Shown here piece by piece: positions 34,924 to 38,166 of a stretch of 64,000 nucleotides of DNA (the first letter of the stretch is position 1; every line of letters starts with the position of its first letter). The notes below the pieces were generated by a model. The model searched no databases, was not told the origin of the DNA, and was given only the letters and a program-made list of their open reading frames with translations. A program made the translations under genes and the position numbers. This stretch comes from Thiosulfativibrio zosterae. GTDB taxonomy: Bacteria > Pseudomonadota > Gammaproteobacteria > Thiomicrospirales > Thiomicrospiraceae. The stretch lies in NCBI RefSeq assembly GCF_011398155.1, contig NZ_AP021888.1:516001-580000 (forward strand). Direction: 5' to 3'.

Positions 34924-34939
34924 AATCAAATCCTTAGCT

Positions 34940-34968
34940 AAGGTTTTTAGCGTTTTTAAAAACCTTTT
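34940..34968 (+). terminator. terminator after trpC
   Basis: AAGGTTTTT / AAAAACCTT stem with an AGCGTTTTT loop and TT after; a perfect dyad CCTTAGCTAAGG overlaps its left side. Confidence 0.6.
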
Positions 34969-34986
34969 GTTAAGTGAAAAAAACAC

Positions 34987-35016
34987 TTGCAAACTTTTAA
35001 AAAAAGTTAATAATAC
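34987..35016 (+). promoter_or_regulatory. candidate sigma70 promoter for the speD leader
   Basis: TTGCAA (34987-34992), 18-nt spacer, TAATAC (35011-35016). It predicts a transcript starting near 35022 with a leader of about 150 nt. Confidence 0.5.
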
Positions 35017-35041
35017 GCAACTCCTTTTTTCTCAAAGAAAA

Positions 35042-35101
35042 ATGGTTAAAACCTCACACGGTTGCCGTATCGCTCAGTGTGGTTGGGGTTCGTCAAGCTA
35101 G
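35042..35101 (+). CDS. putative 19-residue leader peptide upstream of speD
   Basis: ATG at 35042 to TAG at 35099-35101 encodes MVKTSHGCRIAQCGWGSSS. The upstream AAAGAAAA is a weak ribosome-binding site. The last codons lie on the 5' arm of a terminator-like hairpin, so a ribosome reaching or stalling at the end would disrupt that hairpin. Arrangement and length are those of a leader peptide, but translation is not shown; the peptide is not recognised. Confidence 0.4.
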   Translation: MVKTSHGCRIAQCGWGSSS

Positions 35102-35121
35102 CCTTGTCTTGGCGAATTTTT
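35050..35121 (+). promoter_or_regulatory. tandem-hairpin leader with terminator-like second stem, upstream of speD
   Basis: Hairpin 1 pairs ACAC and AACC (35050-35059) with GTGTGGTT (35077-35084), with a 2-nt bulge and a 17-nt loop. Hairpin 2 pairs TTCGTCAAG (35089-35097) with CTTGGCGAA (35108-35116), one G-U pair, followed by five T. This looks like an attenuator controlling the polyamine genes. The terminator is 55 nt before the speD start. Confidence 0.55.
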
Positions 35122-35175
35122 GTTAATCATTCATTCGTGTAACCAAATTGCGAATGTTTCAGTAAGGTCCTTCCT

Positions 35176-35682
35176 ATGCCAAACTCAGAAAATATTTTAG
35201 TCACCGGTAATGAACATTTTGAGGTGATTGAAAAAACCACCCTCATTGATAATACTTGGCCAACTCATGACCAAGCAGCCAGAGATTTAGATTTAACGCT
35301 TGACCACTTTATTACTAAAAATGGTAAAACTTATGCGGGTACGCATATTATTGCTGACTTTTGGGGTGCTAGCCAGTTGGATAATTTGGCGTTAATGGAA
35401 CAGGCATTGCGTGAAGGGATTAAGCAAGCTAAAGCAACTTTGTTGCACATTCATTTGCACCACTTTACCCCCAATGGCGGCATATCGGGTGTTGCAGTTT
35501 TGGCCGAATCCCACATCAGTGTGCATTCTTGGCCTGAAAGACAATATGCCGCATTTGATGTTTTCATGTGTGGGGATTCAGAACCTGAGAAAGCTATTGA
35601 AGTTTTAAAAGCCGCATTTAATCCATCCAAAGTAGATGTCAATAATCTATTACGCGGTGAGGTCGTTGGCGATGGCCAATAA
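35176..35682 (+). CDS. speD: S-adenosylmethionine decarboxylase proenzyme (class 1, prokaryotic)
   Basis: 168 residues. The self-cleavage site motif [21 protein letters not shown] is present; the proenzyme is expected to cut at the Glu-Ser bond and form a pyruvoyl group. The [16 protein letters not shown] and FMCGD segments are also typical. There is an N-terminal extension of about 45 residues compared with the short Bacillus type. The product, decarboxylated AdoMet, is the aminopropyl donor for SpeE. AAGGTCC precedes the ATG. The gene overlaps speE by 11 nt. Confidence 0.92.
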
Positions 35683-36526
35683 TTATCTTGAAACCTTATA
35701 TGCTGGCTGGGGTCAGCAGTTTGTGATGGATGAAATCTTGTTCGAAGCTCAAACCGAGCATCAACACTTGGTTATTTTTAATAATGCCCAATGGGGGCGA
35801 GTCATGGCATTGGATGGCGTGATTCAAACGACCGAGAAAGATGAGTTTGTTTATCACGAAATGATGGTGCATGTGCCGCTTTTGTCGCATGGTTCTGCGC
35901 AGTCAGTTTTAATCATAGGCGGCGGTGATGGTGGTATCCTAAGAGAGGTGCTAAAACACCCAACGGTAAAGCAGGTCACTCAGGTCGAAATCGATCAACA
36001 AGTGATTGATTTGTGTAAAGAATACTTACCTAATCATTCTGCGGGCGCCTATGAAAATCCTCGTGCCAATATCGTGATTGGCGATGGGGTAGAATTTGTC
36101 AATCAAACGCAACAAAAGTTTGATATTATCATTTCCGACTCAACCGATCCGATGGGACCGGGTGAGGTTTTATTTACATCGCGTTTCTATCAAGGTATTG
36201 CATCTTGTCTAAACGAAGGTGGGATTTTTGTGGCACAGAATGGGGTGAGTTTTTTACAAACTCAAGAAGTGATCACAACCGCTAAAAGATTAGCGCCATT
36301 ATTTGACCAAGCCAGTTTTTACACGGCAGCGGTTCCCACCTATGTGGGCGGAATAATGACTTTTGCTTGGGCAACCAATCAATTAGCACACAAAAATGTG
36401 GCATTAGCCACGCTTGAGGCGCGTTACCAAGCCGCAAACTTGCAGACGCGTTTTTACACACCCTCATTGCATCAGGCAAGTTTTGCTCTGCCGCAATATA
36501 TTATGGAAGCTTTACATAATGGATAA
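35672..36526 (+). CDS. speE: spermidine synthase
   Basis: 284 residues from the ATG at 35672; an upstream in-frame ATG at 35636 would add 12 residues deep inside speD and is less likely, as [17 protein letters not shown] already matches the family start. Motifs: [18 protein letters not shown] (AdoMet-type fold), [16 protein letters not shown], and [18 protein letters not shown] (aminopropyl transfer Asp). Transfers the aminopropyl group from decarboxylated AdoMet to putrescine. Overlaps speD by 11 nt and the decarboxylase by 8 nt: a tightly coupled operon. Confidence 0.94.
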
Positions 36527-37724
36527 GCAAACACAACAATTCGTAGATACTTTTGCTGAACAATCTCACCCAGATGTTCTTGAGCAGTTTGACCGTGCCA
36601 GTTTGGAAGAATTGGTGGCTAAACATGACACGCCATTTATGGTGCTCGATTTAGAAGAAATCGACTATCAATATAAATCGTTACAGGCAGCCTTGCCTGG
36701 TGTGAAGTTGTTCTACGCATTGAAATCTCTTTCTCACCCTGAATTGATTAAACGCCTAAAGTCATTGGGCAGTTATTTTGATTTAGCGACCATCGGTGAA
36801 GTGGAATTGGTTGAGTCTTTAGGGATTAAAGGGGATCAGTGTATTCACACGCATCCTATCAAAAAAGACAAAGAAATTGCGCGTGCTCTAGAGTTTGGCT
36901 GTACGCGTTTTGTGGTTGATAACTTTGAAGAAATGAAAAAGTTCTATAAGTATGCGGGCCAAGTTGAGTTAATCATTCGTATCAGTTATCGCAGTAAGCA
37001 AGCGGTGGTGGATTTGTCGCGTAAATTTGGTTGTGTGCTAGAAGAATTGCCAGTGTTGGTTGATATGGCACAGCAAAATGGTTTAGATGTGGTTGGTTTA
37101 TCTTTCCATGTGGGATCGCAGTCGTTATCGCCTATGACACAGGTGAATGCCATTCGCTCGAGTATCGCGGCGATGAAAGTCATGAAAAATGTGAAGTGGA
37201 AATTCCTAGATATTGGTGGCAGCTTCCCAGTTTCTTATCAAGAAGAAGTGATGCCGATTGCAGACTTCTGTGTACCAGTTATGGAAGCCCTTGCAGAATT
37301 ACCAGAAGGCATTGAAATATTTGCTGAGCCAGGTCGTTTTATCTCTGCGCCTTCGATGATTGAAGTCGTATCCATAGTGGGTAAAGCTAAACGCGGTGCC
37401 AGAACTTGGTATTACCTAGATGATGGTGTTTACGGTGGATTTAGTGGACAAATGTTTGACCATGCTGTTTATCCTTTAGCGCCATTAAAAACCATTGATG
37501 CGCATGGTGAGTTTTATCCCAGCGTTCTAGCGGGTCCTACTTGTGACTCGATTGATGTGGTCGCTGAAGATATTGAATTACCCGATATGCAAATTGGTGA
37601 TATTTTGGTTGGCAAGCAAATGGGTGCTTATACCCTGGCCTCTGCAACAGAGTTTAACTACTATCCAAAACCAAAAGTGATTGTGGTCGAAGATATTTTT
37701 GACCCAGAAACTGAAGCACTGTAA
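36519..37724 (+). CDS. ornithine/lysine decarboxylase, PLP fold type III
   Basis: 401 residues from the ATG at 36519, which overlaps the speE stop; a longer in-frame reading from 36414 would run inside speE and is rejected. Pyridoxal-binding Lys in [13 protein letters not shown]; glycine-rich phosphate site [21 protein letters not shown]; and the active-site [10 protein letters not shown]. The fold-III family includes ornithine, lysine and dual-specificity decarboxylases. With speD and speE next to it, production of putrescine from ornithine is the likely role, but cadaverine production is not excluded. Confidence 0.9.
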
Positions 37725-37749
37725 TTCTTAAATAAAGCGGAGAAGTGGT

Positions 37750-38166
37750 ATGACAATGTTGGTTAAATGGCAAGGTGGTATGGCTTTTCAAGCAACGACA
37801 GAATCAGGTCATCAGGTTATGATGGATGCTGCTCCTGAGGTTGGCGGTGCTAACTTGGGCGCGCGTCCGATGGAAATGCTGTTGATGGGTTTGGGAGGAT
37901 GTTCTGGTATCGATGTGATCATGATGTTACAAAAAGGTGGTCAAGAAGTGACCGATTGCCAGATTGAAATCAGTTCACAACGCGCCGAAACCATTCCGAA
38001 AGTCTATACTGAGATTCAAGCCCACTATAAAGTGTACGGCAAAGGACTCAGTGAAAAGAAAGTTCAGCGTGCAGTGGAACTCTCGGCAGAAAAATATTGC
38101 TCGGTTTCTAAAATGTTAGAAGCGACTGTAAAAATGTCCCACACCTTTGAAATTATTGAAGCTTAA
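37750..38166 (+). CDS. OsmC-like peroxide-reductase family protein
   Basis: 138 residues. Two conserved cysteines of the family, one in MGLGGCSGIDVI (about 56) and one in AEKYCSVSKMLEA (about 117), expected to meet in the dimer active site for thiol-dependent reduction of peroxides. The form is closest to the YhfA/OsmC-like branch. AAGCGGAGAAG precedes the ATG. 25 nt after the decarboxylase, so probably in the same transcript, which ends at the terminator at 38198. Confidence 0.88.
   Translation: MTMLVKWQGGMAFQATTESGHQVMMDAAPEVGGANLGARPMEMLLMGLGGCSGIDVIMMLQKGGQEVTDCQIEISSQRAETIPKVYTEIQAHYKVYGKGLSEKKVQRAVELSAEKYCSVSKMLEATVKMSHTFEIIEA

Follow-up and report, generated by a model that had tools for sequence, protein, structure and literature searches.

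For speFL of enterobacteria, a leader-borne regulator of a polyamine operon, a conserved arrest peptide is essential. The SAM-II, SAM-V and preQ1-II riboswitches turn translation OFF by sequestering the Shine-Dalgarno sequence in a pseudoknot. Direct and selective sensing of polyamines by RNA has long been claimed and was demonstrated only recently (PMC10853860). The spermidine riboswitch comprises 13 rare SAM-I variants, mostly Gram-positive, and its authors foresee further polyamine riboswitch classes (Salvail et al., 2023; PMC10853860).

Here we describe the speD leader of Thiosulfativibrio zosterae and its relatives, a previously uncatalogued folded RNA without a match in Rfam 15. Searches with the 4227 models of this release, which include the SAM classes and speF, were run at the gathering score and then at E<=10. 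At the gathering score only four tRNAs were found in the window, that is, the whole 64,000-nt stretch of NZ_AP021888.1 analyzed; at E<=10 nothing was found in the leader core at four leader loci. Literature searches on riboswitches or spermidine in Thiomicrospira and Hydrogenovibrio yielded nothing relevant, with the 2017 survey of 224 candidate RNAs covered through Rfam only.

The speD operon and its leader

The genome is a 2.65-Mb single contig and the sole representative of its genus in the family sample, where its relatives are Thiomicrorhabdus, Hydrogenovibrio, Thiomicrospira and Sulfurivirga. Gene order in the window is trpE-trpG-trpD-trpC, a terminator-like hairpin of trpC, the promoter TTGCAA-16-AATAAT, the leader, speD, speE, a PLP-dependent decarboxylase gene and osmC. 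On the forward strand, speD (35176-35682) encodes S-adenosylmethionine decarboxylase (TIGR03330, E 3.9e-38; PF02675) and speE (35672-36526) spermidine synthase (TIGR00417, E 6.4e-104). The third operon gene (36519-37724, same strand; PF02784, PF00278) encodes a PLP-dependent decarboxylase of the Orn/DAP/Arg type, probably an ornithine/lysine decarboxylase. It reaches none of the NCBIfam equivalog cut-offs (lysA comes closest, with 191 bits vs 298) and is therefore not assigned a substrate, be it ornithine, lysine or another. SpeD carries an N-terminal extension of about 50 residues (window 35176-35330), with AdoMet decarboxylase domain matches beginning at residue 53-57; the extension is common to those relatives that match from residue 1. 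Directly 3' of trpC lies an inverted repeat with a U-run (34934-34970), probably the trp-operon terminator, which sets the trp genes apart from the speD promoter.

The sigma-70-type promoter (34987-35016, forward strand; -35 TTGCAA beginning at 34987, -10 AATAAT/TAATAC), noted in a preliminary description of this DNA, keeps its position in the relatives. AATAATAC is present in 30/30 leaders, most of which also have a -35 of the TTG type at a constant distance. The promoter scan of the window alone gave 3 promoter-like matches vs 1.8 expected.

At the RNA level, conservation of the leader is strong across 30 genomes, which belong to Thiomicrorhabdus, Hydrogenovibrio and the genus of the window itself. 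With small departures, all carry the string AGAAAAATGGTTA-nnn-CCTCAC...GTGGYTGGGG...CTAGCCTT...TTAATCATTCATYCG...CGGGTGTTT...AAGGT...ATG, and the conserved element (about 35021-35178) is longer than first described. RNAalifold applied to 27 leaders gave 34 pairs in four helices, P1 to P4. These form a three-way junction in which P1 closes P2 and P3, with P4 following, and in which junction and loop sequences are invariant. P1 pairs AAUGGUUA (35041-35048) with UAAUCAUU (35124-35131), all eight pairs being present in 29 of 29 distinct sequences. Both hairpins of the preliminary description are real. Hairpin 1, within its proposed reading frame, is P2 (CCUCACAC, 35052-35059, with GUGUGGUUGG, 35077-35086), which has three double-change pairs, a conserved internal loop and a variable tip. 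Hairpin 2, overlapping the end of that frame, is P3 (arms 35087-35097 and 35108-35118), with double changes in 8 of 11 pairs. Its loop, L3 (CUAGCCUUGU, 35098-35107), holds (G/A)CCUU at 35101-35105. P4 abuts P1 and pairs CAUUCGU (35132-35138) with GCGAAUG (35150-35156); it has three double-change pairs, and in the window a U-A replaces the common C-G. The speD Shine-Dalgarno sequence lies at 35164-35168.

Upstream, the predicted window fold contains a further hairpin, P0 (35023-35045), which pairs CCUUUUUUC (35023-35031) with GAAAAAUGG (35037-35045). Its strands CCUUUUU and AAAAAUGG are invariant in 30/30 leaders, and P0 and P1 would compete for AAUGG. The P0 loop of about two thirds of relatives accommodates an extra hairpin (ACACAGAAACC...GGCAACAGA) carrying conserved CACAGAAACC/GGMAACAGA; a search across the family found this extra 5' domain in the speD leader only.

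Insertions are found only at the tips of P2 and P4, in J3/1 and in the linker from P4 to the Shine-Dalgarno sequence, and leave the core intact. Long inserts occur at the P2 and P4 tips in G028 and G030, and a hairpin in J3/1 in G051. In the G030 leader (L155:1681-2075), P4 is also separated from the Shine-Dalgarno sequence by an element of ~270 nt with inverted-repeat flanks GGAAGTGCAAATTAAGC/GCTTAATCTGCACTTCC; a stretch resembling its ATGAGCATAG...CTATGTGATT recurs in the G028 leader insert (L106).

Covariation and distribution

Across the 29 distinct sequences, 97.2% of cells are paired and 14 pairs are changed on both sides. The covariation score is 0.279, vs 0.022-0.050 with slid partners, and none of 500 shuffles reached any of five measures. 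Because this alignment was fitted to the structure, the arms were also tested directly by permutation. Pairing of own arms reached -7.2 kcal/mol for P2 (permuted, -4.3) and -9.0 kcal/mol for P3 (permuted, -4.9), with 0/10,000 permutations as good in either case, relatedness being ignored in both. When restricted to the proposed pairs, a tree-aware test found 4 of 34 at E<0.05; over all column pairs it found none at E<0.05, which can be expected for a young, shallow family. P1 and the core of the pairing between L3 and the Shine-Dalgarno sequence show too little variation for covariation to be informative, and the support for P1 is the perfect complementarity of two invariant strings only. The fold of the window alone (z = -1.52; 17/200 shuffles as good) does not clearly beat chance; it is the comparative data, not single-sequence statistics, that establish the leader as a structured RNA. 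We conclude that it is almost certainly a structured cis-regulatory RNA.

The leader was found in 30 of the speD upstream regions gathered from 46 family genomes. In the 16 remaining genomes, which are Thiomicrospira-like, Sulfurivirga-like or from one further genus, the leader is unrelated, and the covariance model found nothing in it even when run unfiltered. Model R1 located the RNA in 30/63 family genomes, each with one intact copy, preceding speD. Three genomes of RNA-bearing genera that are 99-100% complete (G006, G009, G034) have neither speD nor the RNA. Model searches of 369 class and 398 phylum genomes returned family members only, with few candidates scored per genome and hence limited sensitivity. 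A pattern search in the class gave two extra matches, about the chance number, and one in viral contigs gave 26, none of which was scored by the model. No copy of the RNA was found at speD loci of other genera, and weak model matches in G005 and G027 proved to be plain hairpins. The distribution is thus narrow: one family, three genera.

Gene order is trpC-[RNA]-speD-speE-decarboxylase-osmC in the RNA-bearing genera (window 34924-38166) and trpC-osmC-speD-speE in the genera lacking it (L111-L126), so the leader was gained or lost around a rearrangement. The SpeD tree needs three changes and is compatible with a single origin of the RNA too. G007 has a decayed second copy (L198:1228-1500; G007:C1:265527-265799) about 3.1 kb upstream of its speD leader and preceding a TrpB-like ORF. 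This copy retains 49 bp at 92% identity over P3-P1' and the hairpin of the 5' domain; P1, P2 and the Shine-Dalgarno sequence are broken. The genes between trpC and speD in G007 seem to have been inserted along with the duplicated leader.

Proposed control of speD expression

Every L3 contains (G/A)CCUU and every speD Shine-Dalgarno sequence AAGGU (n=30), and the two are complementary. Computed duplexes have 5-7 bp and energies of -5.0 to -6.9 kcal/mol. A G-to-A change in L3 of two leaders preserves pairing with U, and CCUUGU loops all face GUAAGG, where two wobble pairs could be added. The U after AAGG is invariant, though pairing with 16S rRNA does not require it. Since a shuffled 10-nt loop offers a 5-bp complement of AAGGU 8% of the time, the complementarity is suggestive, not proof. 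We consider it likely that L3 masks the speD Shine-Dalgarno sequence, as a putative pseudoknot or anti-Shine-Dalgarno element.

Folds with P0 forced and with P1 forced, computed for 28 leaders, differ by a mean of -0.25 kcal/mol (range, -4.0 to +2.5). We propose that the structured RNA, about 150-260 nt long and beginning a few bases past the promoter, would control translation of speD and thereby the speD-speE-decarboxylase operon through two mutually exclusive folds having the strand AAUGG in common. In the first, P0 (CCUUUUU/AAAAAUGG) would form and the junction would be open. In the second, P1 would shut the junction and L3, mimicking an anti-Shine-Dalgarno sequence, would pair with AAGGU and block the ribosome. 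Since P4 abuts P1 and P3 (9-11 bp) approximates the length of P1, P3 folded back along P1 would carry L3 to the Shine-Dalgarno linker. A pairing of GGUUA with L3 UAGCC was also considered as switch partner; it is lost in several relatives (AUGCC, ACGCC, CAGCC). A small molecule of the pathway may stabilize the P1 state, giving end-product feedback through a translational OFF-switch. On gene context only, spermidine is our first choice of ligand, followed by decarboxylated SAM, SAM or putrescine. As in riboswitches, the 5' leader has a conserved structure that is maintained by compensatory changes and lies upstream of functionally coherent genes, and we lean modestly towards a small-molecule riboswitch of the polyamine pathway.

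The RNA could instead be a binding site for a protein, either an autogenous operon product or a general RNA-binding regulator, that stabilizes the fold with the masked Shine-Dalgarno sequence. Invariant sequence in paired and looped positions, the narrow lineage range and the single target gene are consistent with this, and a binding protein would account for the conserved sequence equally well. However, the size, three-way junction, embedded switch and loop directed at the Shine-Dalgarno sequence are riboswitch-like, and no candidate regulator gene was seen next to the leader. We regard a protein site as unlikely.

P1 and P0 are A-U-rich and of near-equal energy, as might suit an RNA thermometer, or the target of a trans-acting small RNA, in which the masked fold is opened. 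RNA thermometers rarely keep loop and junction sequence so strictly. No small RNA was identified, and we consider both explanations improbable.

Transcription attenuation, with P3 and a U-run as an intrinsic terminator governed by the upstream fold, is similarly hard to credit. The preliminary description had called hairpin 2 terminator-like, and in the window the 9-bp P3 is indeed followed by UUUUUG; the resemblance is limited to a subset, since similar U-runs follow P3 in just 8/30 leaders. The remaining 22 have none, most having CUAAUAUU instead; a terminator scan of the window passes nothing at P3, and conserved features (the 3' strand of P1, P4 and the Shine-Dalgarno sequence) carry on beyond it.

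The preliminary description had also proposed that a ribosome pausing on a 19-codon ORF (35042-35101, forward strand) stops hairpin 2 from forming. The ATG-started ORF is present, as are the hairpins. The ORF from the same ATG in the 30 leaders, however, is 6 to 55 codons long (e.g., MVNTSRR, MVKTSR, MVNTSRHFN, MVKPHVLINVAGVRRASLVLSNFY), and neither frame, sequence nor stop is conserved, a result that the description itself had named as counting against the peptide. Only the first 2-3 residues, MV(N/K/I), are common throughout, and their persistence is explained by the invariant helix P1, in which ATGGTTA forms one strand. No Shine-Dalgarno sequence stands at the proper distance 5' of this ATG in the 30 leaders. 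Arrest-peptide attenuators of the speFL/TnaC type were likewise rejected, nothing being common past residue 3 and the U-run of a terminator after the ORF being present in just 8 of 30 leaders. We judge peptide-coupled attenuation to have almost no chance of being correct.

Of the preliminary description, cis-acting control in the leader of a polyamine operon (here speD-speE-PLP decarboxylase) thus stands, as do the promoter, which is conserved, and the hairpins, which are kept in relatives with compensatory changes; the peptide and the terminator do not. Control at translation initiation via Shine-Dalgarno masking is more likely than ribosome-stalling attenuation. The present analysis replaces the peptide reading and names specific pairings.

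Comparison with described systems

The spermidine riboswitch derived from SAM-I resembles the proposed switch in lying in the leader of polyamine-synthesis genes (speE, speB, speD and others) and in being turned OFF by the end product (PMC10853860). It differs in having the four-stem SAM-I fold, a Gram-positive distribution and control by transcription termination, whereas the speD leader has a three-way junction, is found in gammaproteobacteria and probably masks the Shine-Dalgarno sequence. No SAM-family match was found at E<=10, and the helices differ, so the speD leader was not assigned to this class.

The odc1 (uORF-25-1) motif is likewise a pseudoknotted, structured RNA in a polyamine gene leader with a masked ribosome-binding site; it is one extended hairpin, from alphaproteobacteria, with a conserved 11-residue uORF and UUG starts (PMC8632094). 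The speD leaders form a three-way junction instead and have no conserved 11-residue uORF before the main start. With speFL the leader shares control of a polyamine operon, but no conserved peptide. SAM-II, SAM-V and preQ1-II have other folds and other conserved sequences, and the speD leader has no match to them in Rfam.

Compared with these systems, the speD leader of sulfur-oxidizing gammaproteobacteria may represent a new class of riboswitch that senses spermidine (or decarboxylated SAM) through a three-way-junction fold distinct from and unrelated to SAM-I and acts by a pseudoknot to the Shine-Dalgarno sequence, although we offer this assignment tentatively. Being well conserved, covarying and tied to one operon, the leader is a ready test case for whether polyamine sensing evolved again with an independent fold.
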